DNA from: Amycolatopsis lexingtonensis
GTDB lineage: Bacteria > Actinomycetota > Actinomycetes > Mycobacteriales > Pseudonocardiaceae
Direction: 5' to 3'
DNA: 64,000 nt
Assembly: GCF_014873755.1 (NCBI RefSeq)
Contig: NZ_JADBEG010000001.1
Location: forward strand, 9,770,501-9,834,500
The notes beneath the pieces were generated by a model. It was not told the origin of the DNA. It saw nothing but the letters and a program-made list of their open reading frames with translations, and searched no databases. Position 1 is the stretch's first letter, and every line of letters starts with the position of its first letter. Shown one piece after another: positions 16,111 through 52,819 of this stretch. Position numbers and translations under genes: made by a program.

Positions 16111-16163
16111 GTCTTGAATGACTCATTCAGGTCTTCGGAGGTCCTGAATGACTCATTCAAGAC
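16111..16163. repeat. Hairpin element R1a (53 bp, paired TGAATGACTCATTCA palindromes)
   Basis: The element starts GTCT and ends AGAC. It contains TGAATGACTCATTCA at 16115-16129 and again at 16145-16159, with centres 30 bp apart and a 15-bp spacer. The whole element is a near-perfect inverted repeat. It sits 44 bp after the stop of the XRE gene. The 12-mer CGGGTCAATCCC occurs on both sides (16030-16041 and 16203-16214), the second copy overlapping the XRE stop codon. Confidence 0.85.
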
Positions 16164-16206
16164 ACTGGCGCACCGCTGCGGACCGCACCGACCCGACTTT
16201 GCCGGG

Positions 16207-17130
16207 TCAATCCCAATCGATGCCGAAGACCCCGGGCCCGAAGTCCAGCGCCACGGCGTGCACCCCGTCGCCCCCGTCCAGCTTGAGCGGGCGGCGTGCC
16301 AGCGACCCCGTCGACCCGTTCCGCGAGTACTGCCAGCACCGCTCCGGCGCGGTGCCCGGCGCGAACCGGACCTCCAGCAGGTACTCCCGCACCGGGCGGC
16401 GGAACTCGCGGTAGTGGGTGTTGCGGCACTCCGGGTACGGCGGCCCGCCGTTCGTCAGCGTGTACTCGATCAAATGCGTCTCGCCGCGGTTGATCGGCTG
16501 GTCGAAGAGCAGCTCGGCGACGATCAGGCCGTGTGCCTCGTCGACCTCGGCGCGGCCCACCCGGCAGTTGCGGACCGCGTGCAGCTCCGGGGCGCCCGCC
16601 GCCGGGTCGTCCTGGGTGTACACCAGCAGCCAGCGGTCCTGGCCGTCCGAGACCGCCTGGAACACCGCTCGGGCGGTCACCGCGCGCTGGCCGCCGTCCG
16701 CGGCGATTTCGCACAGGTCGTGCAGCCCGACCAGTTTCAGCGGGTGCTGGCGCTCCAGCGCGTTCGGGGCGCCGACCTTGTCCAGCAACGGCTGCAGCAC
16801 CTCGCGCGGGAACGACATCGGCTCCCCGCCCGCGTGGCGTTTCCCGGCGCCGCCGCGGGGGCGGGGCGGGGGCAGCAGGCCGAGCAGCGCGCCGGCCGGG
16901 ACGTCGAGGATCTCTTCCAGGGTCCGGACCGCCGACAGCGAACTCTGCCGTTCGGGCTGGCGCTTGCCGGACTGCCAGTAACTGAGGGCGGTGACGCTGA
17001 CGACGACCCCGCGGGCCCGCAGCCGGGCCTGGATCCGGTCGAGCGACAGCCCGCTCGTCGCGATGGCCGCACGCAGTTGCGTGGCGAACGCGGTGCGCCC
17101 GTTCTCGTCGCCCGCCGTGCTGCCCGCCAT
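16207..17130 (-). CDS. XRE-family regulator with large C-terminal domain
   Basis: The 307-residue protein has an N-terminal helix-turn-helix at about residues 10-75 (TQLRAAIATSGLSLDRIQARL, then VVSVTALSYWQSGKRQPERQ) and an LEEILDVPAGAL segment. It then carries a long C-terminal region of unknown function rich in beta structure, ending GPGVFGIDWD. This architecture recurs in actinomycetes without an assigned role. The ATG at 17130 is the best start; an upstream ATG at 17202 adds a low-complexity Arg/Gly tail. The R1a hairpin follows its stop. Confidence 0.78.
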   Translation of the reverse strand: MAGSTAGDENGRTAFATQLRAAIATSGLSLDRIQARLRARGVVVSVTALSYWQSGKRQPERQSSLSAVRTLEEILDVPAGALLGLLPPPRPRGGAGKRHAGGEPMSFPREVLQPLLDKVGAPNALERQHPLKLVGLHDLCEIAADGGQRAVTARAVFQAVSDGQDRWLLVYTQDDPAAGAPELHAVRNCRVGRAEVDEAHGLIVAELLFDQPINRGETHLIEYTLTNGGPPYPECRNTHYREFRRPVREYLLEVRFAPGTAPERCWQYSRNGSTGSLARRPLKLDGGDGVHAVALDFGPGVFGIDWD

Positions 17131-17490
17131 TGCCGATCCGCCCCGTGCCGTCCCCCGACGATCCCCGACACGGAGCACGTTAGCAGGATTGCCCACCCCC
17201 ACCGCGCCCCTGATCGCCGGGCGGTCCGCTGGGGCGAACGGGCTAGTACTGGCAACTGTGAACCATTGCCCCCGCCAGGCCGGGCACGCTTACATGACTT
17301 GCCTGCGCCGGTGGTCCCGCCTCCCCCTCACGGATCACCCGGTGCGCGGGCCGAGAAGCCGTGGACAACGGCTCCGGTTCACCCGGCCGCGTTGTGCGAC
17401 CGGCCGGTGTGGCCGCGCGATGACCGGTGGCCCGGCGACGCCCCCAGCGCCGGGCCACCGGTCTTATTACCAACGGGTAGCATCCGGTCC
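17131..17490. other. 360-bp region without a gene, between divergent XRE and SDR genes
   Basis: This stretch holds the promoters for the leftward XRE gene and the rightward SDR operon. No convincing protein-coding frame was found. Its only strong feature is the perfect hairpin at 17422-17463. I checked for tRNA-like cloverleaf pairing by eye and did not find one. Confidence 0.6.
17422..17463 (+). terminator. Perfect 16-bp hairpin followed by TTATTA, orphan terminator or attenuator
   Basis: The arms 17422-17437 (GACCGGTGGCCCGGCG) and 17448-17463 are exact reverse complements, the loop is 10 nt, and TTATTA follows. It ends 27 bp before the SDR start. No rightward gene precedes it, so it may end a small RNA or attenuate the SDR operon leader. 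Confidence 0.6.
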
Positions 17491-18243
17491 ATGACGCTGC
17501 GGAAGAACATCCTGATCACCGGCGCCAGCAGCGGGTTGGGCGAGGGCATGGCCCGCCAGTTCGCGGCGAAGGGGCGCAACCTGGCCCTGTGCGCGCGGCG
17601 CACCGAGCGCCTCGAAAACCTCGCCAAGGAACTCGAGGCAGCCCACCCCGGGATCAAGGTCGTCACCCGCACCCTCGACGTCACCGAGCACGACCGCGTG
17701 TTCGCCGTCTTCGAGGAGTTCCGCGCCGAGCTGGGGTCCCTCGACCGGGTGATTGTGAACGCCGGGCTCGGGAAGGGGCAGCCGGTCGGCAAGGGCCGGT
17801 TCGACGCCAACCGCCAGACCCTCGAGGTCAACTTCGTCGCGGCCGCGGCCCAGATCGAAGCCGCCGCCGGGATCTTCCGGGAGCAGGGCGCGGGGCACCT
17901 GGCGGTGGTCTCGTCGTTCAGCGCCATCCGCGGGCTGCCGGGCAACCTCACCGCGTACGCCGCTTCGAAGGCCGGGATCTCGGCGTTCGTCGACGGCACC
18001 CGGCTCGAACTCAAGCGCAAGGGCATCACCGTCACCGACGTCCGCCCGGGCTACATCGAGTCGGAGATGAACGACCGGCTCGGTAAGAACCCGTTGCTCG
18101 CCAGGGCGGAGAGCGGCGCCCGGGCGCTGGTGAAGGCGATCGAAGCCGAGCCGCGGCGCGCGTACGTCCCGGCGTGGCCCTGGGTGCCGCTGAGCGTCGC
18201 CATGCGCGTCGTGCCCGCCTCGATCCTGCGGAAGTTCGCATGA
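17491..18243 (+). CDS. Short-chain dehydrogenase/reductase
   Basis: The 250-residue protein is a classical SDR. It has the cofactor motif TGASSGLG (residues 10-17), CARRTERL, which suggests NADP preference, NAG in VIVNAGLG, the catalytic Ser in VSSFSAIRG, and YAASK carrying Tyr and Lys. The C-terminal WPWVPLSVAMRVVPASILRKF is typical of the SDR subgroup that acts on acyl or steroid-like lipids. It is the first gene of a four-gene rightward operon and shares ATGA with the next gene. Confidence 0.92.
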   Translation: MTLRKNILITGASSGLGEGMARQFAAKGRNLALCARRTERLENLAKELEAAHPGIKVVTRTLDVTEHDRVFAVFEEFRAELGSLDRVIVNAGLGKGQPVGKGRFDANRQTLEVNFVAAAAQIEAAAGIFREQGAGHLAVVSSFSAIRGLPGNLTAYAASKAGISAFVDGTRLELKRKGITVTDVRPGYIESEMNDRLGKNPLLARAESGARALVKAIEAEPRRAYVPAWPWVPLSVAMRVVPASILRKFA

Positions 18244-19295
18244 CCACCGTCGAGGTGCGCGAGGAGGACGCCTTCGACGTCGCCGCGGTGCACGCCTGGC
18301 TGACGGCCAAGGTCGACGGGCTCGGCAACGAGCCGCCGCGCGTGCGGCAGTTCCCCGGCGGCGCGTCGAACCTGACGTACCTGCTGACCTACCCGGACCG
18401 CGAGCTGATCCTGCGCCGGCCGCCCGCCGGGCACAAGGCGGCGTCGGCGCACGACATGCGGCGTGAGTACCGCGTCCAGCACGCGCTCGAGCCGGTGTTC
18501 CCGTACGTGCCGCGGATGCTGGCCTTCGGCGACGACGAGGGCGTGCTCGGCGGCGACTTCTACGTCATGGAGAAGCTCGAGGGCCTGATCCTGCGCGGCG
18601 ATCTCCCGCCCGGTCTCGAAGTGCGCCCGGAGCAGGCGCGCGAGCTGTCCGGCAAGGTCGTGGACCGGCTGGTCGACCTGCACGCCGTCGACGTCGGGAA
18701 GGCCGGGCTGGCCGACCTCGGCAAGGGCGCGGGCTACGTCGAGCGCCAGATCCGCGGCTGGTCGGACCGGTACGTCGCGGCGCGCACGGACAACGTCGGC
18801 GACTTCGCCGAGGTGCGCTCGTGGCTGGCGGAGAACCAGCCCGCCGAAGTCAAGATCTGCTTGATCCACAACGACTACCGGCTCGACAACCTGGTGCTGG
18901 ACGGCCCGGCGACGCTGAACATCACCGGCGTGCTCGACTGGGAGATGGCCACCCTCGGCGACCCGCTGATGGAGCTGGGCAGCATGCTGGCCTACTGGGT
19001 CCAGGCCGATGACGACGACGTCATGAAGGCGAGCCGCCGCCAGCCGACGCACCTGCCCGGGATGTTCACTCGCGAAGAGTTCGTGTCGCGCTACGCGGAG
19101 AAGACCGGCCTGGCCGTGGCCGACTGGCGGTTCTACGAGGTCTACGGCCTGTTCCGGCTCGCGGCGGTGCTGCAGCAGCTGTACCGCCGCTACCGCGAGG
19201 GCGCCACCCGCAACCCGGCGTTCAAGAACTTCTGGCAGTTCGTCGGCTACCTGGACTGGCGCTGCCGGGAAATCATCGCGAAGGGAAGCGTGTAG
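18240..19295 (+). CDS. Phosphotransferase-family protein (APH/ACAD10-type kinase fold)
   Basis: The 351-residue protein has an aminoglycoside-phosphotransferase fold. FPGGASNLTYLL forms the nucleotide loop, ELILRRPP supplies the ATP lysine/arginine region, the catalytic loop is CLIHNDYRLDNLVLD, and the metal-binding segment is GVLDWEMATLGDP. This subgroup is found beside acyl-CoA dehydrogenases and SDRs and includes the kinase half of ACAD10, which phosphorylates 4-hydroxyacyl-CoA. A role in hydroxy-acyl-CoA breakdown is thus plausible but not proven. The ATG at 18240 overlaps the SDR stop. Confidence 0.88.
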   Translation: MTTVEVREEDAFDVAAVHAWLTAKVDGLGNEPPRVRQFPGGASNLTYLLTYPDRELILRRPPAGHKAASAHDMRREYRVQHALEPVFPYVPRMLAFGDDEGVLGGDFYVMEKLEGLILRGDLPPGLEVRPEQARELSGKVVDRLVDLHAVDVGKAGLADLGKGAGYVERQIRGWSDRYVAARTDNVGDFAEVRSWLAENQPAEVKICLIHNDYRLDNLVLDGPATLNITGVLDWEMATLGDPLMELGSMLAYWVQADDDDVMKASRRQPTHLPGMFTREEFVSRYAEKTGLAVADWRFYEVYGLFRLAAVLQQLYRRYREGATRNPAFKNFWQFVGYLDWRCREIIAKGSV

Positions 19296-19951
19296 TGGGC
19301 GCGATCTACCTGGTCCGGCACGGTCAGGCCTCGTTCGGCGCGGCCGACTACGACGCCCTGTCGCCGCGCGGCTTCGAGCAGTCCACTGTGGTCGGTGCGG
19401 AGCTGCTGCGCCGCAACGTCTCTTTCAACCAGGTCCGGTCGGGTTCGCTCGCGCGGCAGCGGGACACCGCGGCGACGGCGCTGAAGGTGCTGGGCAGCGA
19501 CGTCCCGGTGGTCGAGGACCCGCGCTGGAACGAGTACGACCACGTCGACATCGGGCTGCACCACGCGGGCGGCGCGCCGCAGGAGGATTCCCGGGCCTAC
19601 CAAGGGGTTCTGGACGCGGCGCTGACCGCGTGGACGTCGGCGGGCCCCGACGGCCCGTGTGCCGAGACGTGGCCCGTGTTCCTCGCCCGCTGCCGCGAAG
19701 CGCTCGCGGACCTGGTGGCGTCCCTCGGCAAGGGGGAGAACGCGCTCGTCTTCACCTCCGGCGGCGTGATCGCCACGGTCTGCGGCCTGCTGATGGGCAC
19801 GCCCGAAGCCGGGCTGCTGAAGCTCAACCGCGTCACGGTCAACGGCGGCATCACGAAGCTCGTTTCGGGCCGCGGCGGCGTAACCTTGTTGTCGTTCAAC
19901 GAACACCCGCACTTCGAGGCCGAAGCGGCTTCGCTGCTCACCTACCGGTAG
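19295..19951 (+). CDS. Histidine phosphatase superfamily protein
   Basis: The 218-residue protein shows the phosphoglycerate-mutase-like signature IYLVRHGQAS (residues 4-13) with the phospho-acceptor His. It also has QRDTAATAL, an acid/base region near ARWNEYD, and a second catalytic His replaced in the ALVFTSGGVIA segment, where SGG stands in for the usual SHGG. Loss of that His may lower activity or mark a divergent subgroup. The GTG start overlaps the last base of the preceding stop (TAGTG), so translation is coupled to the phosphotransferase. Confidence 0.85.
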   Translation: MGAIYLVRHGQASFGAADYDALSPRGFEQSTVVGAELLRRNVSFNQVRSGSLARQRDTAATALKVLGSDVPVVEDPRWNEYDHVDIGLHHAGGAPQEDSRAYQGVLDAALTAWTSAGPDGPCAETWPVFLARCREALADLVASLGKGENALVFTSGGVIATVCGLLMGTPEAGLLKLNRVTVNGGITKLVSGRGGVTLLSFNEHPHFEAEAASLLTYR

Positions 19952-19961
19952 GAGACGTTCG

Positions 19962-20876
19962 ATGCGGTTCGGCGAGGTCACGATCCACCCGGTGAACGGC
20001 CACGGCCCCGAAGACGTCGTGGTCGACGGCGAAGGCCGCGTCTACACCGGCGTCGACGACGGCCGCATCCTGCGCCTGTCCCCGGACGGCCGCCGCATCG
20101 ACGTCCTCGCCGACACCGGCGGCCGTCCACTCGGGCTGGAGCTGTACGGCGAGGACGAGCTGCTGATCTGCGACGCCCGCGCCGGGCTGCTGGTGGTGCC
20201 GCTGTCCGGCGGAACGCCGTCGGTGCTGGCGACTTCCGCGCTGGGCCTGGACTTCGTGTTCTGCAACAACGCGGCGGTCGCGGCCGACGGGACCGTGTAC
20301 TTCACGGACTCTTCCCGCCGCTTCGGCATCGACAACTGGCGCGACGACCTGATCGAGCAAACCGCGGGCGGCCGCCTGCTGCGGCGGTCGCCGGACGGCT
20401 CGATCGACTTGCTCCTGGACGGCCTCCAGTTCGCGAACGGGGTGGCCTTGGCGCCGGACGAGTCCTTTGTGGCCGTCGCGGAGACAGGCGCGTGCCGGGT
20501 GTCGCGAGTGTCCCTTTCGGGCGGTCGAGCGGACGTGCTGATCGATGGTCTGTGGGGCTTCCCGGACAACATCTCGACGGGCACGGACGGATTGATCTGG
20601 ATCACGCAGGCGTCCCCGAAGGTGGCGGCACTGGACGTGGTCCGGCGGATGCCTGCGTTCGTACGGGCGGGAGTCCGGCGGCTGCCGACGTCGTTGCAGC
20701 CCAGCCCGGGCCGCGAGGTGGGCGTGCTGGGTGTCGCCGCCGACGGCAAGGTCGTGCGCGAGCTGCGCGGCGAGATCGACGGCTTCCACATGCTGGTGGG
20801 CGTCCGGGAGTGGCAGGGACAGCTGTACTTCGGCTCGCTGGAGGAGAACGCGATCGCGGTGACCGCCGCCGGGTGA
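19962..20876 (+). CDS. SMP-30/gluconolactonase or strictosidine-synthase-like beta-propeller
   Basis: The 304-residue cytosolic protein folds as a six-bladed propeller judging from repeats such as GPEDVVVDGEGRVYTGVDDGRI, NAAVAADGTVYFTDSSRRF, LQFANGVALAPDESFVAVAETG and GFPDNISTGTDGLIW. The residues FVFCNNAA, NGVA and FPDN match the metal-ligand positions of the SMP-30/strictosidine synthase clan. Members are lactonases or related hydrolases, and the substrate here is unknown. It lies 10 bp after the phosphatase and closes the operon. Its stop abuts the stop of the opposing SDR. Confidence 0.85.
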   Translation: MRFGEVTIHPVNGHGPEDVVVDGEGRVYTGVDDGRILRLSPDGRRIDVLADTGGRPLGLELYGEDELLICDARAGLLVVPLSGGTPSVLATSALGLDFVFCNNAAVAADGTVYFTDSSRRFGIDNWRDDLIEQTAGGRLLRRSPDGSIDLLLDGLQFANGVALAPDESFVAVAETGACRVSRVSLSGGRADVLIDGLWGFPDNISTGTDGLIWITQASPKVAALDVVRRMPAFVRAGVRRLPTSLQPSPGREVGVLGVAADGKVVRELRGEIDGFHMLVGVREWQGQLYFGSLEENAIAVTAAG

Positions 20877-21539
20877 TCACCAGGGCACGGTCTCGCCGTG
20901 CCGGTCCAGGAACCGCAGTCCGGGCTTACCCGCCTGCGCCTCGAGAACGTCGACGACCAAGGGGATCGACTCCTCCGGTGACAGCGGTGCGTCCGGCCCG
21001 CCGAGGCGGGTGCGGTTGTGGCCCGGGTCGATCAGCAGCTTCGTGTGCCCGTCGCCGTCGAAGCGGGTCGCGTAGCTGCGCATCAGCTGGTTGAGTGCGG
21101 CCTTGCTGGCCTTGTACAGCTCGTACCCGGGTTCGGTGTTCAGCGTGATGCTGCCCTGCTCCGACGACATCACCGCGACCGTCCCGCCCGGGACGACCAG
21201 CTCGCGCAGGGCTTCCAGGACCCGCAGCGGGCTCAGCGCGTTGGTGACCATCACCTCGGTGAGCATGTCCGTCGGCACCTCGCCGATCGGGAGGTCGCCG
21301 CGATCGATGGCCGCGTTCACGAAGAGCAGGTCGAACCGCCGGTCGCTCAGCCGCGAGCGCAGGGCAGCCAGTTGGGTGGGATCGGTCATCTCCAGGGTCT
21401 CCACTCTCAGGCCGGGGGGAGTGTCGCCGCGGGTGGTGGCGGTGACGTCCCAGCCGCGGCGGGTCAGTTCGCGGGCCAGGACCAGGCCGAGGCCGCGGGA
21501 GGCGCCGATGACGAGTGCTTCGGGCACGGTGAGCCCCAT
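20877..21539 (-). CDS. SDR oxidoreductase, TetR-controlled
   Basis: The 220-residue SDR has the glycine motif VIGASRGLGLVLA near the N-terminus and TTRGDTPP at the second strand. NAAIDRGDL replaces the usual NNAG, and it has VMSSEQGSI with the catalytic Ser and YELYKASKAALN with Tyr and Lys. I placed the start at the ATG at 21539 because the palindromic operator begins on the next base; a longer frame would encode the operator as protein. The gene is divergent from the TetR gene at 21590 and almost certainly its target. Confidence 0.9.
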   Translation of the reverse strand: MGLTVPEALVIGASRGLGLVLARELTRRGWDVTATTRGDTPPGLRVETLEMTDPTQLAALRSRLSDRRFDLLFVNAAIDRGDLPIGEVPTDMLTEVMVTNALSPLRVLEALRELVVPGGTVAVMSSEQGSITLNTEPGYELYKASKAALNQLMRSYATRFDGDGHTKLLIDPGHNRTRLGGPDAPLSPEESIPLVVDVLEAQAGKPGLRFLDRHGETVPW

Positions 21540-21569
21540 TTGTCTAGACGCGACGTTGCGTCTAGACAA
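21540..21569. promoter_or_regulatory. Perfect 30-bp palindromic operator between SDR and TetR genes
   Basis: The arms TTGTCTAGACGC (21540-21551) and GCGTCTAGACAA (21558-21569) are exact reverse complements around a 6-bp spacer. The site touches the SDR start codon and lies 20 bp before the TetR start, covering both promoters. Each arm contains the small palindrome GTCTAGAC. Confidence 0.88.
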
Positions 21570-21589
21570 TAGCACGCTATCGTGGCCGC

Positions 21590-22147
21590 ATGCCCGCCCC
21601 GAACCAGCCGAGGGCCCGCTCCGGCAACCGGCGCGACGAGGCCGCGCGCCTCGCCGTGCTGCACGCCGCCGACGATCTGCTCGTCGAGCACGGGTTCGGG
21701 GGGCTGACCATCGAGGCGATCGCCCGCGAGGCCGGCGTCGCCAAGCAGACGATCTACCGCTGGTGGCCGTCGAAGGTCGAGATCCTGCTCGACACGCTCA
21801 TCGAGGACGCGGCCAAGTGCGTGCCGGTGCCCGAAAAGGGACTCCGCGACTACCTCCACGCGTTCGCCCGCTTCCTCACCCGCGAGCCGGCGGGCAAGGT
21901 CATGCTGGCGCTCCTCGCCCAGGCCCAGCACGACCCGGCCACGGCGGCGAGCTTCGAGGAGCGCTACCTCGGCCCGCGCCGGGCGGCGGAACGCGACCTG
22001 ATCACGCGTGCGATCGAGGCGGGGGAGATTTCACCGCGCCTCGGCCCCGATGCCTTGCTGGACGCGCTGTTCGGCCCGATCGTCTACAGTGCACTCACCG
22101 GTTCGGGTCAGGACCTGGCCGACGCGCTCGCCGACGAACTCCTCTAG
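21590..22147 (+). CDS. TetR/AcrR-family repressor
   Basis: The 185-residue protein has an N-terminal TetR helix-turn-helix at about residues 20-65 (AADDLLVEHGFGGLTIEAIAREAGVAKQTIYRWWPSK, including the typical KQTIYRWW). An all-helical ligand domain follows, with a C-terminal LLDALFGPIVYSAL. It belongs to the TetR group with a small C-terminal domain. The shared palindrome immediately upstream implies control of itself and of the SDR at 20877. The ligand is unknown. Confidence 0.93.
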   Translation: MPAPNQPRARSGNRRDEAARLAVLHAADDLLVEHGFGGLTIEAIAREAGVAKQTIYRWWPSKVEILLDTLIEDAAKCVPVPEKGLRDYLHAFARFLTREPAGKVMLALLAQAQHDPATAASFEERYLGPRRAAERDLITRAIEAGEISPRLGPDALLDALFGPIVYSALTGSGQDLADALADELL

Positions 22148-22158
22148 CGCCCGACCCG

Positions 22159-22245
22159 AGCGCCCCAATGTGGCGTTGGTTGCGTCAGACGCACCCAATG
22201 TGGCGTTCGGTGCGTTCAACGCACCGAACGCCACATTGGGGCGCT
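22159..22245. repeat. Hairpin element R2a (two 30-bp direct units plus an inverted unit)
   Basis: The motif CAATGTGGCG starts at 22166 and again at 22196, exactly 30 bp apart. Positions 22194-22216 then pair perfectly with 22218-22240 (23 bp, one-base centre). An alternative outer pairing joins AGCGCCCCAATGTGGCGTT (22159-22177) to 22227-22245. It lies between the convergent TetR and enoyl-CoA hydratase genes, so it is probably a bidirectional terminator. Confidence 0.85.
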
Positions 22246-22299
22246 TGAGCCGGGGACGACGGAAGCCGTGGCATCGGTGAAACTTGTCGAGCGGCTGCT

Positions 22300-26060: not shown

Positions 26061-26071
26061 GCAAATCAAGC

Positions 26072-30172: not shown

Positions 30173-30978
30173 GTTCCACCCCTGAAGAGATCTTCGCGAC
30201 GGCGGGCGTGCGGGGCTTCCTGCACGTCCGCCGTCTCGGTTCCCCCGCTTCCACCGGTGTCGGTGCCGATGCGCCGGTCGTGCTGGCGTCGGTGGTGAAG
30301 GTGCCGCTGGCGTACGAGTTCGCCCGGCAGGTCGCGGCCGGACTGCTCGACCCCACGGACCGGGTGCGCGCGTCCGCGGCGGACCGCCTGGGCGGTAGCG
30401 GCTCGGCGGGCTTCGCGGACGACGTCTCGTACAGCCTGCGCGACGCGGCCCGGCTGGCGCTTTCGGTGTCCGACAACACCGCGGCGGACCTGCTCTTCGA
30501 CCGGGTGGGGGTGGCCAACGTCCGCTCGCTGCTGGCCGAACTGGGGCTGACGCGGACGACGATCATCGGACCGCCGCGGGATCTGCTGCGCACGATCATC
30601 GAGGACAACGAGGCCGGACGGCCGCTGCGGGCGTTGGACCCGTTGCGCACGTCGGCGAGTACGCCGCGGGAGATGACCGCATTGCTGGCGGCGATGTGGG
30701 GTGACCCGGCTGGGGATCAGGTCCGTGAGTGGATGGCGGCGCAGGTCAGCTGGCACCGGTTGACCGCGGGGTTTCCGCCGGAGGTCGCCGTGGTGGGCAA
30801 GACGGGCACGATGCCGGGGATCCGGAACGAGATCGGGGTGGCGACGTATCCGGACGGGGTTTCGTACGCGATCGCGGTGTTCACAGTGGGCGGGGCGGAG
30901 ACGTTGCGCCGCCCGGACATCGACCGCGCGATCGGCGACGCGGCCCGGGCGGCGGTGGAGCAGCTGCGCGGGTCGTGA
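30169..30978 (+). CDS. Class A beta-lactamase-like serine hydrolase without signal peptide
   Basis: The 269-residue protein keeps the active-site motifs of class A beta-lactamases: SVVK at residues 41-44 (SxxK), SDN at 101-103, an acidic IIEDNEAG segment near the omega-loop position, and KTG at 211-213. It has no signal peptide or lipobox; residue 1 is a GTG overlapping the valine dehydrogenase stop. It is therefore probably cytosolic, unlike true resistance enzymes. It may act on an internal ester or amide, and its coupling to an amino acid dehydrogenase is unexplained. The stop codon lies inside the following hairpin. Confidence 0.85.
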
Positions 30979-31015
30979 GTGTTTGGTCGGGTTCTGACCC
31001 GACCAAACACTCACG
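30974..31015. terminator. Perfect 19-bp hairpin R4 between convergent genes
   Basis: The arms CGTGAGTGTTTGGTCGGGT (30974-30992) and 30997-31015 pair exactly around the loop TCTG. The TGA stop of the beta-lactamase-like gene lies within the left arm, and the LysR stop is 8 bp beyond the right arm. It is a clear bidirectional terminator candidate. Confidence 0.85.
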
Positions 31016-31022
31016 AGGCTTT

Positions 31023-40245: not shown

Positions 40246-40262
40246 CCGCCGGGCCCGGGACG

Positions 40263-40348
40263 AGCGCCCCAATGTGGCGTTCGGTGCGTCAGACGCACCC
40301 AATGTGGCGTTCGGTGCGTTGGACGCACCCAACGCCACATTGGGGCGC
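40263..40348. repeat. Hairpin element R2b (30-bp units, inverted end)
   Basis: CAATGTGGCGTTCGGTGCGT starts at 40270 and again at 40300, then an inverted unit closes it at about 40322-40346. The second unit and the inverted unit pair over 22 bp with one mismatch. It lies between the convergent PPOX and PucR-type genes, as R2a lies between convergent genes. Confidence 0.85.
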
Positions 40349-42559: not shown

Positions 42560-42943
42560 TCAGCCCACCCGGGTCAGGCGCGGCCGGTGCGTGGTGACCT
42601 CCGCCGGACGGCGGGGCGCTGGCACCCGCACCGGCACCGGCCGGACCCGGGCCAGGACCCCGGCGACGACGGCCACCGCGAGCACCCCCGCGGCCACTGC
42701 CGACGCCGCGTCGAACGTCAGCTCGCCCGCACGCCCGAGCACGAAGCCCGAATCCAGCGCCCACGCCACCGCCGCGACCCCGATCGCGGCGGTGGCCGTG
42801 CTGCGGAACGCCGTGCCGAGGACCACCAACCCCAACGTCACCAGCGCGTACCACGGGAACCGGGTCGCGCCGGCCACGTCCGCCAGCACCACCGCGACGA
42901 CCGCGGCCCCGCACCCGAACGGGAACCCGAAGCCACCACTCAT
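42560..42943 (-). CDS. Small four-helix membrane protein, possibly extended by a repeat-derived N-terminus
   Basis: The 127-residue protein starts SGGFGFPFGCGAAVVAVVLADVAG and has about four hydrophobic segments, then a basic Pro/Arg tail. No family is recognised. The frame stays open upstream through the R1b hairpin to a second ATG at 43099, which repeats the same nine residues (SGGFGFPFG). The longer product would carry 52 extra residues including VLNESFRTSEDLNDSFKTS. I prefer the ATG at 42943 because the longer start lies in repeated DNA. The SGNH stop is 5 bp from its end. Confidence 0.6.
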   Translation of the reverse strand: MSGGFGFPFGCGAAVVAVVLADVAGATRFPWYALVTLGLVVLGTAFRSTATAAIGVAAVAWALDSGFVLGRAGELTFDAASAVAAGVLAVAVVAGVLARVRPVPVRVPAPRRPAEVTTHRPRLTRVG

Positions 42944-43106
42944 GCCCCCAGCAGCAGGGTTCCGGCAAAGTCGCGGCGGCTCACTCGGCGGCGGCTTCGC
43001 TGACGTCTTGAATGAGTCATTCAGGTCTTCGGAGGTCCTGAATGACTCATTCAAGACACCGCGGACCCACCCGAACGGGAACCCGAAGCCACCACTCATG
43101 CCCCCA
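42912..43106. repeat. 39-bp direct repeats flanking hairpin R1b
   Basis: Positions 42912-42950 and 43068-43106 are identical over 39 bp and 156 bp apart. Each copy contains an ATG and the first codons of the membrane gene. Between them lies R1b. Confidence 0.9.
43005..43057. repeat. Hairpin element R1b (53 bp)
   Basis: It carries TGAATGAGTCATTCA at 43009-43023 and TGAATGACTCATTCA at 43039-43053, with centres 30 bp apart, the same spacer as R1a and GTCT/AGAC ends. It lies 124 bp after the alpha/beta hydrolase stop. Confidence 0.88.
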
Positions 43107-43180
43107 TTAGGACCCGCCGGGGCAGGCCAAAGGATGAGCCAGGACACATTCCCTACACCCCGGCCCCGGATCTTGACGCG

Positions 43181-44047: not shown

Positions 44048-44078
44048 TCCCCGATCCTGCCGTACCCGTTCGAAGATG

Positions 44079-44097
44079 GCACCGGCACGGGCGGTGC
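44079..44097. promoter_or_regulatory. Candidate TetR site between hydrolase and TetR genes
   Basis: GCACCG (44079-44084) and CGGTGC (44091-44097 region) form a short inverted repeat in the 67-bp divergent gap. It is followed by GGTTACCGTTAC. It is weak and short, but the only symmetry in the gap. Confidence 0.3.
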
Positions 44098-44114
44098 GGT
44101 TACCGTTACGCCCC

Positions 44115-44846: not shown

Positions 44847-44905
44847 CAGCGACTTGACAGTGCCCCGGCGTACCGTGGACGTGCGTCGGTGGTTCGCCCA
44901 TCGAC

Positions 44906-44953
44906 CCGGAGCCCCTGGCGCCCTCCTCCCCCTCGTGGCGTCGGGGGCTCCGG
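44906..44953. terminator. Long-loop hairpin between convergent TetR genes
   Basis: CCGGAGCCCC (44906-44915) pairs with GGGGCTCCGG (44944-44953) with a 28-nt loop. It ends 2 bp before the stop of the leftward TetR gene. Confidence 0.55.
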
Positions 44954-44954
44954 T

Positions 44955-45605: not shown

Positions 45606-45685
45606 GGCCCCATCGTCGCACGGCGGGTTGGGCCGGGCAGCCCGGTCCGCACGATGCCGGACGCGGTGCCACGATCGGGGCACGG

Positions 45686-47377: not shown

Positions 47378-48129
47378 GCGGTGGTTCCCCGGTACAGTTC
47401 GGGCCGTCGGTCGGCCAGGTGGGTGTTTTCCAGGCGGGACGCGGCGAGCGCTTCTCGCGTGACATCGGCGTGGACCAGCTCCGGCCCGGATCCGGCGCGC
47501 GCCAGGACTTCCCCGGTCGGGGCGGCCACGCAGGAGCGGCCGCAGTAGGTCAGCTCCCGCTCGGTGTCGCAGCGGTTCGCGTAGGCGACGAACAGCTGGC
47601 TTTCGTAGGCCCGCGCGGGCACGAGCGTGTCGGCGACCAGTTCGTACGGCGTCATCAGCGCGGTCGGCACGACCAGCAATTCCGTGCCGGCCAGCGCGTG
47701 CGCCCGGACCAGTTCCGGGAATTCGACGTCGTAGCAGATCAGCAGCCCGATCCGGAGGCCGCCGAGCTCGGCCTGCACCACGGCTTCGCCGCCGGGGGTG
47801 AACCAAGCCTTGTCGAGGTCGCCGAACAGGTGCGTCTTGCGGTAGTTCGCGAGCCGCCGCCCGGTCGCGTCGACGAGCTGGACGCTGTTGTAGACGTGCT
47901 CGCCGTCGGATTCCGGGTAGCCGTAGGCGATCGCGACGCCGGTTTCCCGTGCCAGCGCGGACAATCGCTGTGCGGTGGGCCCGTCGGCGGGCTCGGCGAG
48001 TTCGTGCGTGCGCGCGCCGATGTGGTAGCCGGTGGTGCCCATCTCGGCCGTGACGACGAGGTCGGCGTCGGTGCCGGCGAGCACCTCCGGGAGAGCGTCG
48101 AACGGGCCCTGGTGGATCGCGACCCTCAT
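47374..48129 (-). CDS. davA: Carbon-nitrogen hydrolase, 5-aminovaleramidase-like (DavA-type)
   Basis: The 251-residue nitrilase-superfamily amidase has the Glu-Lys-Cys triad in VVTAEMGTTG, YRKTHLFGDLD and LLICYDVEFPE. It would hydrolyse the amide made by the 2-monooxygenase, giving 5-aminovalerate if lysine is the substrate. Size matches DavA. ATGA overlaps on both sides place it between permease and monooxygenase, so the three are translated in order of substrate flow. Confidence 0.85.
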   Translation of the reverse strand: MRVAIHQGPFDALPEVLAGTDADLVVTAEMGTTGYHIGARTHELAEPADGPTAQRLSALARETGVAIAYGYPESDGEHVYNSVQLVDATGRRLANYRKTHLFGDLDKAWFTPGGEAVVQAELGGLRIGLLICYDVEFPELVRAHALAGTELLVVPTALMTPYELVADTLVPARAYESQLFVAYANRCDTERELTYCGRSCVAAPTGEVLARAGSGPELVHADVTREALAASRLENTHLADRRPELYRGTTA

Positions 48130-49517
48130 GCCAGCCTCGACTTCCGGATGCCGTAACCGAAGTAGAGGACCAGGCCGAGCGCCATCCAGCCGCCGAAGAC
48201 GACCCAGGTGGCGCCGTCGAGGCTGAGCATCATGTACGCGCAGCACAGCACGCCCAGGACCGGCGTCACCGGCGAGAACGGCACGCGGAACGAGCGCGGC
48301 CGGTCCGGCTGACGGCGGCGCAGCAGCAGGACGGCGACGTTCACCAGCCCGAACGCGAACAGCGTGCCGATGCTGGTCGCGTCGGCCAGCTTGCCCAGCG
48401 GGATGAACGCCGCCAGCACGGCCACGAAGCCCGAAACCACCAGGGTGTTGACCCGCGGCGAGCCGCTCTTGGTGTCTACTTTGGACAACACGCCCGGCAC
48501 CAGGCCGTCGCGGGACATCGCGAACAGGATGCGCGTCTGTCCGTAGAGGACGGTGAGCACCACGCTGGAGATGGCCACGATCGCCCCGACCGCCAGCAGC
48601 GCGGCCCAGAGCGGGTTGTCCGACACGACGCCGAGGACATGCGACAGCGCGGCTTCCTGGCCGTCGAACCGCTGCCACGGCAGCGCGCCGACCGCGGCCA
48701 CCGCGACCAGGCAGTAGAGCACGGTGACGATGCCGAGCGAGAGCAGGATCGCGCGCGGCAGGTCGCGCTGCGGGTTCTTCGCCTCCTCGCCGGCGGTCGA
48801 GGCGGCGTCGAACCCGATGTAGGAGAAGAAGAGCTTGGCCCCGCCGGCACTCAGCCCGGCCAGCCCGAGCGGCAGGAACGGCGTGAAGTTCTTCGCCCGC
48901 ACCGCGGTGAACGCGATCGCGCAGAACAGCACCAGCGTGCCGATCTTGACCACGACCATGACCGCGTTGGCCCGCGCGCTCTCCTTCGCGCCGGACAGCA
49001 GCAGGAGCATCGCGAGGACCACGACGGCGATGGCGGGTACGTTGACGATCCCGCCCGAGCCCGGCGGCTGGCTCAGCGCGTCCGGGATGGTGAAGCCGAA
49101 CACCAGCCGCAGCAGCTCGTTGACGTACTGGCCCCAGCCGACGGCAACCGATGCCACCGAGACGCCGTATTCGAGGATCAGGCACCAGCCGCAGACCCAG
49201 GCGACGAGCTCGCCGAGGGTGGCGTAGGCGTAGGAGTACGACGAACCCGACAGCGGGATCATGCCGGCGAGCTCGGCGTAGGACAGCGCCGAGAAGAGCG
49301 CGGTGATCCCGGCGAGCACGAACGAGAGCACCACCGCCGGCCCGGCCACCGGGACGGCTTCGCCGAGCACGACGAAGATGCCGCTGCCCAGCGTCGCCCC
49401 GATGCTGAGCATCGTGAGCTGCCCGAGGCCGAGCGACCGCTTCAACGTGCCATGATCACCTTCGGCGACGAGGTCGGCGACCGGTTTCCGCCGCACCGTC
49501 GCGGCTCGCAAAGTCAT
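48126..49517 (-). CDS. APC-family amino acid permease, cationic amino acid transporter-like
   Basis: The 463-residue membrane protein has about 12 helices and the APC signatures GATLGSGIFVVLGEAVPVAGPAVVLSF, FSALSYAELAGMIPLSGSSYSYAYATLGE, SYIGFDAASTAGEEAKNPQRDLP and SRDGLVPGVLSKVDTK. The subgroup resembles cationic amino acid transporters. It is first in the operon and would import lysine or a related amino acid. The ATG at 49517 lies 59 bp from the palindrome at 49576. Confidence 0.9.
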   Translation of the reverse strand: MTLRAATVRRKPVADLVAEGDHGTLKRSLGLGQLTMLSIGATLGSGIFVVLGEAVPVAGPAVVLSFVLAGITALFSALSYAELAGMIPLSGSSYSYAYATLGELVAWVCGWCLILEYGVSVASVAVGWGQYVNELLRLVFGFTIPDALSQPPGSGGIVNVPAIAVVVLAMLLLLSGAKESARANAVMVVVKIGTLVLFCAIAFTAVRAKNFTPFLPLGLAGLSAGGAKLFFSYIGFDAASTAGEEAKNPQRDLPRAILLSLGIVTVLYCLVAVAAVGALPWQRFDGQEAALSHVLGVVSDNPLWAALLAVGAIVAISSVVLTVLYGQTRILFAMSRDGLVPGVLSKVDTKSGSPRVNTLVVSGFVAVLAAFIPLGKLADATSIGTLFAFGLVNVAVLLLRRRQPDRPRSFRVPFSPVTPVLGVLCCAYMMLSLDGATWVVFGGWMALGLVLYFGYGIRKSRLA

Positions 49518-49575
49518 GCCGACGACCGTATCCGCCGTTTCCGGCGGGCAAAACAGGGAAACATTGCGCGTACAG

Positions 49576-49595
49576 ATGAATCACAGGTGATTCAT
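49576..49595. promoter_or_regulatory. Palindromic operator upstream of the lysine operon
   Basis: ATGAATCAC and GTGATTCAT are 9-bp perfect arms around a 2-bp centre. The site is 59 bp before the permease start and 18 bp before the end of the histidine kinase gene. It is AT-rich in a GC-rich region and suits a TetR- or GntR-type dimer, most simply the TetR at 44955. Confidence 0.65.
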
Positions 49596-49612
49596 TGCAC
49601 AGGATGCGCAGA

Positions 49613-50911
49613 TCATGGCGATTCGTTCTGCTCGGCGGCGGGCAGGAGCAGGGTGAAGGTGGGCGGGGCGGGACGGCTCAGGCGGAGCCGGCCGCCTTCG
49701 GCCTCGGCGAGGCTGCGAGCCAGCGGCAGGCCGATCCCGTGGTCGCTCGGCGCGGTCGCGAACGGATCGGTCTCGCCCAGGTCCGGGCCTTCGTCGGCCA
49801 CGTCGATGGCCAGCGCGTCGCCGGCGTCGCGGGCCACCACGGTGACCGTGCCGCGGCCGTGCGTCGCCGCGTTGTCCAGCAGGACGCCGAGCACCTGGCG
49901 GACCGCCGCGGCCGCCACCCGGGCCGGCGGCGGCTCCTCGCGGATGATCCGCAGCGCCCGGCCGTGCGGGGCGAGCAGGGCCTCGCCGGCCTGGCGGACT
50001 TCGTCGAGGAGCGCGTCGAGGTCGAGCTCGGCGCGCGGGGCCCGGCGTTCGCGGCCCAGGGCCAGGAGGTCCTCGATGGTGCGTTCCAGCCGGTCGGCGG
50101 ACGCGATGCCGGCGCGGATCGCCTCGTGCGGGTCGGCGCCCGGGGTGTGCAGCGCGGCCTCGAGCTGCAGGCGCAGCCCGGTCAGCGGGGTTCGCAGCTG
50201 GTGCGACGCCTGCGCGGAGAAGGCGCGCTCGCGTTCGAGTGTTTCGCCGATCCGGGCGGCCGTGGTGTCGAGCGTCTCGCCGACCTGGTCGATCTCGGCG
50301 ATGCCCGCGCGCGGTGACCGGGCGGTGAAGTCGCCGTCGCCGAGCCGTTCGGCCGCGGCGGCGAGCTCCTCCATGGGGCGCACCAGCCGCTTGGTGAACC
50401 GCCGGGCCATCAGCCAGCTCATCCCGGTCGTCGCGACCGCGAGCCCGGCCATGCCGAGCCAGGTCAGCACGATCTGCAGCCGCAGCTCGGACAGCGGGAG
50501 CGCGGCGCGGACCACGCCGGTCACCCGGGGGCCGCTGACGACCGGCACGGCCAGCGCCATTTCGTCGCCTTCGCGGCCGACGACGACGTCGACCGTCGCC
50601 TTGGCCGCCTGCCGCTCGACCGGGCCGGCGACGGCGGGCCCGCGCCCGGCGAGCAGCCGCCCGTCCGGGGCGTAGACCCCGACCTCGCCGCCGGCTTCGT
50701 CGTCCTCCGCGTCGAGCGGGGGCACGGTCGGCTGCCGTCCGGCGCTCAGGTCCACCGACACGGCGAGCGCGGTGGTGTCCGCGGCCCGCTCCAGGTCGCT
50801 CTTCGCGTCGTCGTGGTAGTACTGCCACACGGCGATGCCCAGCGGCAGCGCGAACAGCACGGTCGCCACGAGTGCGGCCAGCACCGTCAGCGCGGTGATC
50901 CGGCGGCGCAC
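49613..50911 (-). CDS. Two-component sensor histidine kinase
   Basis: The 432-residue membrane kinase has two transmembrane helices (about residues 6-30 and 148-170), an extracellular sensor loop, a HAMP linker (RRFTKRLVRPMEELAAAAERLGDGDF), the phospho-acceptor box FSAQASHQLRTPLTGLRLQ, and ATP-binding N, G1 and G2 boxes (LDNAATHG, VADEGPDLGETD, GIGLPLARSLAEAEGG). The G1 box is diverged. The GTG start is 2 bp after the response regulator stop. Confidence 0.93.
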   Translation of the reverse strand: MRRRITALTVLAALVATVLFALPLGIAVWQYYHDDAKSDLERAADTTALAVSVDLSAGRQPTVPPLDAEDDEAGGEVGVYAPDGRLLAGRGPAVAGPVERQAAKATVDVVVGREGDEMALAVPVVSGPRVTGVVRAALPLSELRLQIVLTWLGMAGLAVATTGMSWLMARRFTKRLVRPMEELAAAAERLGDGDFTARSPRAGIAEIDQVGETLDTTAARIGETLERERAFSAQASHQLRTPLTGLRLQLEAALHTPGADPHEAIRAGIASADRLERTIEDLLALGRERRAPRAELDLDALLDEVRQAGEALLAPHGRALRIIREEPPPARVAAAAVRQVLGVLLDNAATHGRGTVTVVARDAGDALAIDVADEGPDLGETDPFATAPSDHGIGLPLARSLAEAEGGRLRLSRPAPPTFTLLLPAAEQNESP

Positions 50912-50913
50912 GG

Positions 50914-51624
50914 CTAGCCTTCGGCCGCGGACCGGGCCGGGTCCTCCAGGCGGTAGCCGTGGCCGCGCAGGGTGGCGATCCGGGGCACCTCCGCGTCCGG
51001 GCCGGCGACCGAGGCGAGCTTGCGGCGCACCGCCGCGATGTGCACGTCGAGGGTCTTCGTCGAGCCGTACCAGTGCGCGTCCCAGACCTCGGCCATCAGC
51101 GTGTCGCGGCTGACCGCGACGCCGGGCTGCTCGGCCAGCCGCGCCAGCAGGTCGAACTCCTTCGCGCGCAGCACGACTTCACGGCCGTGCAGGGTGGCGC
51201 GGCGGCCGGCGATGTCCACGGTCAGCCCGCCGACGGTCACCGGCGGCCGGGCCCCGGCGGGCGCGCCGCGGCGTAGGTGCGCGCGCACCCTGGCCAGCAG
51301 CTCGCCCAGCCGGATCGGCTTGGTGAGGTAGTCGTCGGCCCCGGCGTCGAGGCCGACGACGACGTCCATCTCCTCCTGCCGGGCGGTCAGGATGACCAGC
51401 ACGGCGGCGGGCAGCGCGCTCCGCAGCCGGCGGCAGACCTCGACGCCGTCCAGGTCGGGCAGGCCGAGATCGAGCAGCACGAGGTCGAACTCGCCGGCCT
51501 CGGCGGCCTGCAGGGCGGTCCGCCCGTCACGGCGCCAGCACACCTGGTAGCCGTGCAGTCGCAGGGTCGATTCGAGCACGCTGCCGATCGCCGCGTCGTC
51601 TTCCACCACCAGCAGGTTCGGCAT
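50914..51624 (-). CDS. OmpR-family response regulator
   Basis: The 236-residue regulator has a receiver domain (LLVVEDDAAIG, the phospho-accepting Asp in LVLLDLGLPDLDG, TAR and DDYLTKPI) and a C-terminal winged helix (LRAKEFDLLARLAEQPGVAVSRDTLM...STKTLDVHIAAVRRKL...IATLRGHGYRLE). The start is the ATG at 51624. It forms a classical pair with the kinase. No target is identifiable. Confidence 0.95.
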   Translation of the reverse strand: MPNLLVVEDDAAIGSVLESTLRLHGYQVCWRRDGRTALQAAEAGEFDLVLLDLGLPDLDGVEVCRRLRSALPAAVLVILTARQEEMDVVVGLDAGADDYLTKPIRLGELLARVRAHLRRGAPAGARPPVTVGGLTVDIAGRRATLHGREVVLRAKEFDLLARLAEQPGVAVSRDTLMAEVWDAHWYGSTKTLDVHIAAVRRKLASVAGPDAEVPRIATLRGHGYRLEDPARSAAEG

Positions 51625-51671
51625 GCCGGGCAGCCTAACCAACGACTCACCGGATTTCGGACGACTGTGGC

Positions 51672-52346
51672 CTATTCCGTCCGGGTGCCGAGGCCGATCT
51701 GCGATATCCGCTGCGAACCGGCCGCCACGGCTTCGGTAAACGCAGCGACTTCGCCGGGCCCGAACCGGCTGGTGGGACCGGTGACGGCGAGCGCCGCCAG
51801 CACCCGCCCGTCCCCGTCGTGCACCGGCACGGCAACGCTGGAAGCGCCGGTTTCCGGCTCACCGTGGCTGACGGCGGCCCCCTCGGCCCCGTCGAGCACC
51901 TTCCCGGCGGCCCCGAACCCGAGCGGCAGCTCGTCCCCGACCCGCCCGACATGCCGGATCGCGAGCGGCCCCTCCTGCTGGGCCACGCAGACCACGACGG
52001 AGGTGCTGCGGACGTAGAGGTTGACAGTCTCCCGGCATTCGCGCGCGAGGTCCCGCAGTACCTGCCGGACCGGTTCGGGCAGCTGCCACGCGGTGTTCGC
52101 CAGCTGCGCCCACCGCAGCATCCCGGGCCCGACGGTGATCCGCCCGTCCGGCCGCGTCCAGAGCAGACCGCGCTGTTCGCAGGTGGCGACGAGCCGTAGG
52201 ACGGTGGTTTTCGCGAGGCCGCTGGCGGCGGTGAGGTCCTTGACGGCCCAGGTGCGGCGGTGTTCGGTGAAGAGGGCGAGCAGGTCGAAAGCGCGAAGGA
52301 CGCTGCGGACGGCGCCTTCTTCGGTGGTGTGGTGTTCCGTCGTCAT
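51672..52346 (-). CDS. IclR-family transcriptional regulator
   Basis: The 224-residue protein has an IclR winged helix (SVLRAFDLLALFTEHRRTWAVKDLTAASGLAKTTVLRLVATCEQRGLL) and the GAF-like effector domain (RETVNLYVRSTSVVVCVAQQEGP, then GAAGKVLDGAEG and VHDGDGRVLAALAVTGPTSRF). It is short for the family, with the C-terminal end trimmed. The 47-bp gap to the two-component genes suggests its own unit. Confidence 0.92.
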   Translation of the reverse strand: MTTEHHTTEEGAVRSVLRAFDLLALFTEHRRTWAVKDLTAASGLAKTTVLRLVATCEQRGLLWTRPDGRITVGPGMLRWAQLANTAWQLPEPVRQVLRDLARECRETVNLYVRSTSVVVCVAQQEGPLAIRHVGRVGDELPLGFGAAGKVLDGAEGAAVSHGEPETGASSVAVPVHDGDGRVLAALAVTGPTSRFGPGEVAAFTEAVAAGSQRISQIGLGTRTE

Positions 52347-52492
52347 CGCGCGACCTCCCCAAGTCCGCTGGACGGACCGATTGTACCGCGGTGTGGACCG
52401 GGTGGGTCGTTTGTCGCCCGAATGCCACAGGGGTCCGCGTCGTGCGCCCGCCCGCTCAAGCTATGTGGCGCTCGAGTGCCGCGGTGCTTCGT

Positions 52493-52545
52493 GTCTTGAA
52501 TGAGTCATTCAGGACCTCGGAAGACCTGAATGAGTCATTCAGGAC
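52493..52545. repeat. Hairpin element R1c
   Basis: TGAATGAGTCATTCA occurs at 52497-52511 and 52527-52541, with the usual 30-bp centre spacing. The right end is GGAC, not AAGAC, so the outer pairing is slightly weaker than in R1a. Confidence 0.85.
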
Positions 52546-52577
52546 CCTGCGCGGCGGCCGCCGGGGCTGGTTCGGGT

Positions 52578-52630
52578 GTCGTGAACGACTCGTTCATGTC
52601 GCTGGGTGCGATGAAAGGGTCGTTCACGAC
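52578..52630. repeat. Divergent hairpin element R1' (copy 1)
   Basis: TGAACGACTCGTTCA (52582-52596) and TGAAAGGGTCGTTCA (52612-52626) keep the 15-bp motif, the 30-bp centre spacing and the 53-bp length of R1, but two symmetrical positions of the palindrome differ (C/G for T/A). Confidence 0.8.
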
Positions 52631-52681
52631 GTTCGGGGCCGGGCTCAAGCTATGTGGCGCTCGAGGGCTGCGGTGCTTCGT

Positions 52682-52734
52682 GTCTTGAATGAGTCATTCA
52701 GGACCTCGGAAGACCTGAATGAGTCATTCAGGAC
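52682..52734. repeat. Hairpin element R1d (tandem copy of R1c)
   Basis: Identical to R1c and displaced by 189 bp; palindromes at 52686-52700 and 52716-52730. Confidence 0.85.
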
Positions 52735-52766
52735 CCTGCGCGGCGGCCGCCGGGGCTGGTTCGGGT

Positions 52767-52819
52767 GTCGTGAACGACTCGTTCATGTCGCTGGGTGCGA
52801 TGAAAGGGTCGTTCACGAC
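52767..52819. repeat. Divergent hairpin element R1' (copy 2)
   Basis: Identical to the element at 52578 and displaced by 189 bp. It ends 20 bp before the isomerase stop codon. Confidence 0.8.

Follow-up and report, generated by a model that had tools for sequence, protein, structure and literature searches.

What keeps a 53-bp hairpin recurring with one fixed internal spacing along a single stretch of the Amycolatopsis lexingtonensis genome, and by what route could its copies have spread? An earlier note on this stretch (64,000 nt, hereafter the window) described four such copies, R1a to R1d, each with two palindromes centred exactly 30 bp apart; positions and spacing were all confirmed. We find that Amycolatopsis carries hundreds of short hairpins built on one 53-base plan, which differ in sequence and are gained or lost between genes across species. 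The source genome (G000, 10.74 Mb) was compared with two close relatives, G325 and G342, over a total of 2.4 Mb (1.2 Mb of G000, 0.8 Mb of G325 and 0.4 Mb of G342). The names of the subfamilies (R1, R2, R3, R6, R7 etc.) and of the repeat unit E2 were coined in the present analysis.

Hairpin elements in the window

Positions are those of the window, with no strand assigned:

4681..4733, R7 element (TGAAGGCCTCCTTA type), gap 113
16111..16163, R1a, subfamily R1 hairpin, 53 bp, inside a longer repeat
22149..22244, R3 three-unit element (CCAATGTGGCGTT type, 30-bp period) between convergent genes, gap 124
40253..40348, R3 three-unit element between convergent genes, gap 135
42912..42950, left 39-bp target duplication of the R1b insertion (the two copies were checked and are identical)
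42951..43067, insert bearing R1b (repeat unit E2), gap 139, missing here in G325 and G342
43005..43057, R1b, subfamily R1 hairpin, 53 bp, outer stem of 21 bp unbroken
43068..43106, right 39-bp target duplication of the R1b insertion
52433..52810, head-to-tail duplication with a 189-bp period, containing R1 and R2 twice; copies 94% identical, limits being the repeat finder's cut points
52493..52545, R1c, subfamily R1
52578..52630, R2 copy, the divergent form
52682..52734, R1d, the second copy of R1c in the tandem duplication (189-bp period)
52767..52819, R2 copy, duplicate of 52578..52630

The window contains 12 occurrences of the pattern TGAAN7TTCA, where shuffling predicts 0.05. About 140 bp around R1a (16064-16206) are found at two other places of the genome with 94-95% identity, and related copies of the E2 insert around R1b exist as well. 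The GTCT ends first ascribed to R1 hold at the start of the unit (GTCT in 45 and GTCC in 3 of 48 aligned units) but not at the far end, where R1a and R1b finish in AGAC, R1c and R1d in GGAC. Similarly, the symmetric change proposed for the divergent form is present in its first palindrome (TGAACGACTCGTTCA) but not in its second site (TGAAAGGGTCGTTCA), which makes no local palindrome and mostly still pairs with the first arm.

Rfam 15 gave no match above the gathering score in the window. Among the best-ranked open-access literature matches, taken by titles and starts of abstracts, no account of these repeats was found; the surveys of bacterial stem-loop families PMC1590033 and PMC2267715 were covered at that level.

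One plan in many sequences

The suspicion of a genome-wide element is supported: TGAATGASTCATTCA is present in 558 copies in the whole genome and is not confined to the copies of the window, while the reversed-pattern control gives 0. TGAAN7TTCA forms 307 pairs spaced by exactly 30 bp, again with 0 in the control. At least seven subfamilies, R1 among them, differ in their arms but have a common geometry. The superfamily unit is a 53-bp palindrome or hairpin whose stem reaches up to 24 bp and whose loop has 5 nt; it carries two dyad-symmetric AANGNNNCNTT sites whose centres lie 30 bp apart; arrays with three or four sites retain the 30-bp period. Across the 2.4 Mb of the three species, 162 motif pairs are spaced by 30 bp, 38 by 60 bp and 3 by 29 bp, and no other distance up to 70 bp accounts for more than 2.

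Searched without reference to the motif, the same 2.4 Mb contain 149 long hairpins, 100 of which bear a symmetric motif pair. Within 26 bp of these hairpin centres there are 206 motif sites, of which 200 sit exactly 15.0 bp off centre. The second base G and the sixth base C of the variable part are found in all 124 paired TGAAN7TTCA arms, beyond what the pattern requires, these arms comprising 13 different 7-mers and 78 arms of R1; in unpaired occurrences the same bases are found in 32 of 53.

The dominant type changes from species to species. Exact R1 palindromes number 77 in the 1.2 Mb of G000, 0 in the 0.8 Mb of G325 and 4 in the 0.4 Mb of G342; 19 R1-like matches were counted elsewhere in the G325 genome. 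At the family level, the TGAA-type pair is absent from 243 of 297 genomes, among them 7 of the 26 members of the genus. Loci of other genera show the same frame, the search model used there itself containing the motif. For the range beyond the order, a sample of the class was scanned: of its 246 genomes besides G000, 4 gave 1-2 model matches each (best, 45.8 bits), which we provisionally regard as ordinary hairpins. So far, the dispersed group lies mainly within one actinobacterial order.

The long hairpin as the better supported fold

Superfamily arms diverge widely yet remain complementary. Over the long hairpin, two-sided changes occur in 16 of 24 pairs, compared with 11.8 in shuffles, and the covariation score is 0.379 versus 0.150 shuffled, with none of 500 shuffles scoring as high. 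Twin local hairpins show 90.9% of cells paired versus 84.0% in shuffles and a covariation score of 0.254 versus 0.136, but no excess of two-sided changes (5 of 14 pairs versus 5.2). Tried as the main constrained fold, they are present, though weaker than the long hairpin. The invariance of the AANGNNNCNTT columns in alignment A1, with 36 rows hand-picked from 88, follows from how the alignment was built.

By these sequence comparisons, the long hairpin joining both palindromes is the better supported fold. The rigid spacing and compensating changes reported at the outset are supported, the fold in question being the long hairpin rather than the twin local ones. Folding energies of eight elements range from -30 to -47 kcal/mol.

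Placement relative to genes

Within the window, gene calls place R1 and the divergent copies after the 3' end of a leftward gene, as originally described, but this does not extend genome-wide. Among 76 superfamily elements in the 1.2 Mb of G000, 73 are intergenic and 3 genic, most lying near gene 3' ends; convergent gaps hold 32, tandem gaps 35 and divergent gaps 6. For the 73 intergenic elements, gap lengths predict 8.9 convergent and 22.1 divergent cases. In tandem gaps, the element is closer to the 3' end of the upstream gene in 28 of 35. Few copies or random scatter had been set beforehand as outcomes that would speak against a genome-wide element, and neither was found. T-runs are rare next to R1, with four or more T within the next 8 nt in just 3 of 96 R1 flanks; one R7 copy (gap 157) is followed by CTTTT.

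Turnover between close relatives

Comparison of the three species resolved 196 gaps. In 35 of these an element stands in one species or more; 17 are filled in a single species, 13 in two and 5 in all three, so that presence varies at 30 of the 35. Close relatives show empty sites, insertions and differing subfamilies within the same gap. In the window, the R3 element of gap 124 is shared by G342 and missing from G325; gap 135 has R3 in G000 and R6 in G342 (G325 not resolved); gap 113 has R7 in G000, R3 in G342 and no element in G325. Elsewhere, gaps 190 and 176 carry R1 in one species where another has R2. In gap 237 the loop is common to two species and 7 stem pairs differ, 3 of them changed on both sides with pairing kept and 3 losing pairing in one species. 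An identical position of differing types was judged by eye, and for gaps 190, 176 and 237 only. Hot spots that take up insertions repeatedly may account for differing types within a gap, and part of the pairwise insertions may instead reflect a deletion from the other species. Copies that are insertion-polymorphic between sister species point to a mobile repeat and not only to a conserved regulatory structure.

A set of 50 clean insertions, within gaps or next to them, comprises 26 with a motif pair and 24 without. The element-bearing inserts span 58-488 bp, all exceeding 53 bp, and none of the 26 is a bare 53-bp insertion with a fixed duplication. Target duplications vary from 0 to 49 bp without a fixed size; a duplication of 9 bp or more accompanies 11 of the 26 insertions with an element and 3 of the 24 without. 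Such variable lengths do not fit a classical transposase and allow a wholly passive route. The R1b duplication, identical over 39 bp, was scored as 42 bp with mismatches in the insertion comparison. Some R1 copies are part of composites, about 160-180 bp long, that have inverted ends. Where copies of these ends (CCGGCAAAGTCG; 2.4 Mb scanned, of which 1.2 Mb G000) are intergenic, nearly all are close to R1, and no parent element bearing them, looked for by its ends only, was recognised in the 2.4 Mb.

Possible origins

On balance, we consider the elements to be probably REP- or MITE-like non-autonomous mobile hairpins read by a protein of the host lineage, some of them perhaps serving as terminators. 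We infer recognition of the paired sites by a trans-acting factor (a recombinase, nuclease or hairpin-binding protein) because the AANGNNNCNTT columns and the spacing persist while the remaining arms get rewritten. Copies would enter breaks through end-joining or template switching, which would produce duplications without fixed length. Resident copies might then be converted to the dominant type of the species by recombination or, alternatively, by correction in which one arm serves as template for the other. Right after stop codons, copies would be tolerated, and some may act there as two-way terminators. A more specific version, possible though doubtful, is a new class of mobile or homing-like hairpin, of which one actinobacterial protein reads the geometry, two AANGNNNCNTT dyads 30 bp apart in one hairpin, and not a fixed sequence; many subfamilies unrelated in sequence could then emerge, spread and displace each other at shared sites, with the dominant type of each species tracking what its protein recognises.

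Could the host simply keep these hairpins as bidirectional terminators, stabilisers of RNA 3' ends or RNase III sites, with ordinary duplication as the only mobility? Actinobacterial intrinsic terminators have a strong stem directly after stop codons and between convergent genes. The Amycolatopsis hairpins are likewise stable and near gene 3' ends; selection on an RNA hairpin would keep the arms complementary and set them there, and the convergent excess, divergent deficit, tandem bias, folding energies and the CTTTT after one R7 copy all agree. We nevertheless find this unlikely: terminators require neither AANGNNNCNTT nor a 30-bp period in three- and four-unit arrays, whereas these are dispersed families with a conserved motif and spacing; R1, the only subfamily counted, is without T-runs; presence varies between species; and the location equally fits mere tolerance. 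Rigid spacing, dyad sites and species-specific dominant types in shared gaps would also suit dimer pairs of a chromosomal or regulatory protein, about three turns apart, with sites following its drifting specificity. This is distinctly unlikely: G000 and G325 share about 90-96% identity in aligned blocks, and the turnover between them is rapid if the role is structural; nor would a DNA-binding array need hairpin symmetry over the whole 53 bp. Under passive spread alone, breakage at fragile palindromes would be followed by copying through end-joining or template switching, with no dedicated protein. Such spread agrees with duplications and insert ends that vary, with three above-cut-off matches to the Ku family and with the duplications at element-free insertions. 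It leaves unexplained how spacing and AANGNNNCNTT columns survive amid arm rewriting and why loci of other genera share the frame (through a model containing the motif), and we hold it very unlikely.

The least credible candidate is the classical REP/RAYT system, in which a Y1 tyrosine transposase spreads the repeats. Excerpts of PMC2817692 describe REPs and BIMEs as extragenic palindromes in over 100 copies per genome, with unit clusters, species-specific types and compensating mutations, all as here. However, Y1_Tnp (IS200/IS605-like transposase) has no match at E <= 0.001 in G000 or in any of 80 genus genomes, the search matching 5 of 14 controls; mobilisation by RAYT is rejected for this reason. 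In addition, the GT(A/G)G head is absent from all 48 aligned R1 units (only R1 was counted), and the unit is a near-perfect 53-bp hairpin with paired sites 30 bp apart. A large dispersed group would join a field whose best-explained case, the REPs, relies on a transposase that was not found in the genus, and the three-species comparison makes the identity of a mobilising or converting enzyme directly testable.

Relation to other palindromic repeats

With prokaryotic MITEs, as excerpted in PMC10969869, the mobile hairpins favoured here share being short, non-autonomous, palindromic, intergenic and insertion-polymorphic, with filled and empty orthologous sites, some pairwise cases of which could be deletions; they differ in having no target duplication of fixed length. 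The same excerpts present Rickettsia palindromic elements as several palindromic families, of about 150 bp and noted for insertions in genes. In contrast, only 3 of the 76 Amycolatopsis elements are genic, and they have a period and site motif of their own. Two R3 copies lie in frame within polyketide synthase ORFs, 30 bp being a multiple of three; the process thus also reaches antibiotic-type pathways.

R1 is a dispersed, genome-wide element

The R1 element, a 53-bp hairpin with two palindromes 30 bp apart, and its divergent form, here R2, are present in the window where the earlier note had placed them, with palindrome centres 30 bp apart in each:

16111: R1a
43005: R1b
52493: R1c
52578: R2
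52682: R1d
52767: R2

TGAAN7TTCA occurs 12 times in the window against 0.05 expected. The window lies at 9.77-9.83 Mb on a single 10.74-Mb contig, and the proposal of a genome-wide element is borne out: this contig carries 558 copies of TGAATGASTCATTCA (reversed control, 0), and the genome search for the paired pattern suggested in that note, TGAAN7TTCA-N15-TGAAN7TTCA, returned 307 matches at 30 bp (control, 0). Among named genomes, the 80 R1-core stretches listed, of 99, all come from A. eburnea GLM-1 and Amycolatopsis sp. 2-2.

R1 measures 53 bp in all 48 copies drawn from 1.2 Mb of the genome and the first loci, with a sequence near GTCTTGAATGASTCATTCAGGTCTTCGGAGGTCCTGAATGASTCATTCAAGAC; by eye, the flanks are mostly unrelated. 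Longer repeats, including a composite with inverted ends, enclose several R1 copies. At C1:70141-70760 (L034), R1 sits inside inverted CCGGCAAAGTCG ends, which are in turn enclosed by more ends of this kind and by R2 units, in the manner of Russian dolls.

One frame, many arms

R1 belongs to a superfamily in which a common frame holds many arms of differing letters.

Arms of the hairpin subfamilies (labels R1-R7 coined in the present analysis)
R1: TGAATGASTCATTCA
R2: TGAACGRSYCGTTCA and relatives
R3: CCAATGTGGCGTT
R4: TGAATGCCACATT
R5: CGAATGASTCATTCG
R6: TGAAGGGGACGTT
R7: TGAAGGCCTCCTTA

In 2.4 Mb, pairs of AANGNNNCNTT are 30 bp apart in 162 cases, 60 bp in 38 and 29 bp in three, every other distance to 70 bp occurring at most twice. 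Two controls guard against circularity. A motif-blind search returned 149 long hairpins, of which 100 contain a symmetric motif pair; 206 motif sites fall no more than 26 bp from a hairpin centre, 200 of them at a distance of 15.0 bp. Ordinary-looking terminators are among the remaining 49. The second control is base preference: paired TGAAN7TTCA arms have G at base two and C at base six in 124/124 (13 different 7-mers, 78 arms being from R1), without the pattern requiring either, while unpaired ones do so in only 32/53. Another dispersed hairpin, TCGTGAGTGTTTGGTCGGGTT...AACCCGACCAAACACTCACGA, lies at window 30973-31016 and has no AANGNNNCNTT pair; related hairpins occur in stretches of this genome and of its relative G325.

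Fold and covariation

Folded alone, R1b forms an unbroken 21-bp outer stem (-36.7 kcal/mol). Eight folded elements, including a 45-nt R3, range from -30 to -47 kcal/mol, with z of -6.3 to -11.8. From 88 two-unit elements (53-bp hairpins with two motif sites) of three species, excluding R3 and R4, we chose 36 for variety; they align without gaps. The 24-bp long hairpin is paired in 88.9% of cells, compared with 27-44% for slid control structures. Both-side changes affect 16 of its 24 pairs (shuffle mean 11.8; as many as 16 in 1/500), and its covariation score is 0.379 vs 0.150 in shuffles (0/500). The twin local hairpins exceed all 500 shuffles in paired cells (90.9 vs 84.0%) and in covariation score (0.254 vs 0.136); their double-change pairs, 5/14, show no excess over shuffles (5.2). 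Thus both symmetries are present, with more compensating change in the long hairpin. R1 palindrome centres are complementary across the arms in 35 of the 48 copies and not in 13.

Position relative to genes

With genes called by a simple caller written for this analysis, 76 elements in 1.2 Mb of this genome fall into convergent gaps (32, against 8.9 expected by intergenic length), tandem gaps (35), divergent gaps (6, against 22.1 expected) and genes (3). Within tandem gaps the element is closer to the upstream gene's stop codon in 28/35. Two R3 copies lie in frame within polyketide synthase ORFs, 3' of what we take to be the ketosynthase domain, and translate in both as ...DAPNATLGALDAPNATLG...; the third genic match may be chance. 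The two ORFs (C1:10060277-10075114 and 10098436-10113594) are giant and outside the window, each with a three-unit R3, an array of the same 30-bp period, directly after this presumed domain.

Range

TGAA-type pairs occur in 54/297 genomes and 19/46 genera of a family sample (maximum 471 per genome; control, 0) and are absent from 7 of its 26 genus members. A covariance model, whose counts are lower bounds since few candidates were scored per genome under stricter filters, matched 24/200 genomes and 12/60 genera of an order sample, including four other families, some with just one or two weak matches. Among 20 loci fetched from that search, the motif stands at unit positions 7 and 37 in 16, at 6 and 36 in one, at 7 only in one and is absent in two, the model itself including the motif. 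In a class sample, 4/246 genomes besides the window's own gave 1-2 matches each (best, 45.8 bits).

Turnover between species

We compared the window's genome, G000, with two syntenic relatives, G325 and G342. Of 53 G000-G325 aligned blocks above 1.5 kb, 51 are 89.9-96.1% identical; the other two, at 76%, are probably paralogous. Exact R1 palindromes number 77 in 1.2 Mb of G000, 4 in 0.4 Mb of G342 and none in 0.8 Mb of G325, although R1-like copies exist elsewhere in the latter. Intergenic gaps could be resolved in all three species in 196 cases; 35 of these gaps are occupied by an element in one or more species: G000 alone (10), G342 alone (7), G000 and G342 (10), G000 and G325 (3) or all three (5). 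In each of these five, G000 has R1 (once plus R5) and G325 has R2, while G342 carries R5 at three of them and R2 at the other two, automatic labels confusing R3 and R5 in multi-unit elements.

G000 and G342 have flanks and a 5-nt loop in common at gap 237 and differ in 7 stem pairs: three have changed in both bases yet remain paired, three are lost and one is gained in G342. The same position is held by R1 or R2 at gaps 190 and 176; in the remaining shared gaps, positions differ or are unmatched by eye. Four R2 elements stand in tandem, with a 129-bp period, at about C1:419900-420360 of G325 (L109), in the gap that carries a single R1 in G000 and a single R5 in G342. At window 52433-52819, R1 and R2 are duplicated in tandem with a 189-bp period; this gap has only an R2-like copy in G325, and its sole copy in G342 is R1-like and spaced at 29 bp.

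Insertion and possible mechanism

Pairwise calls, which use analyst-set identity thresholds and sometimes leave insertion and deletion indistinguishable, gave 50 distinct clean insertions, each 35 bp or longer and lying within a gap or next to one. The motif pair is inside 26, and flanking duplications of at least 9 bp accompany 11 of these (9-49 bp) vs 3 of the 24 others. R1b is one such case, part of a 117-bp insert between identical 39-bp duplications, absent from both relatives.

Spread by Y1 transposase, as for REP sequences, appears to be unavailable in the genus, since Y1_Tnp matched 0/80 of its genomes while the controls responded. The 58-488 bp range of motif-pair inserts and the lack of a fixed duplication length make a classical transposase less likely and favour capture at breaks; Ku-family matches number three. 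Template switching, proposed in PMC8794818 as an origin and repair route for hairpin arms, could preserve arm pairing as letters change. Neither process explains why paired sites and spacing survive, which points to a putative protein that would recognise both. Some copies may act as terminators, but T-runs are lacking in R1 (present in 3/96 flanks). One defining feature of REP and one of MITE (short non-autonomous mobile elements) were tested and not found, so we class the hairpins as short interspersed palindromic repeats of neither kind. Among the best-ranked titles and abstract openings of the open-access literature, we found no such sequences, nor such repeats in Amycolatopsis.

Window 14790-16206, comprising two genes and R1a, lies between neighbours that are only ~20 bp apart in G325 and in another genome, G327; in a further one, G309, other hairpins occupy this place.
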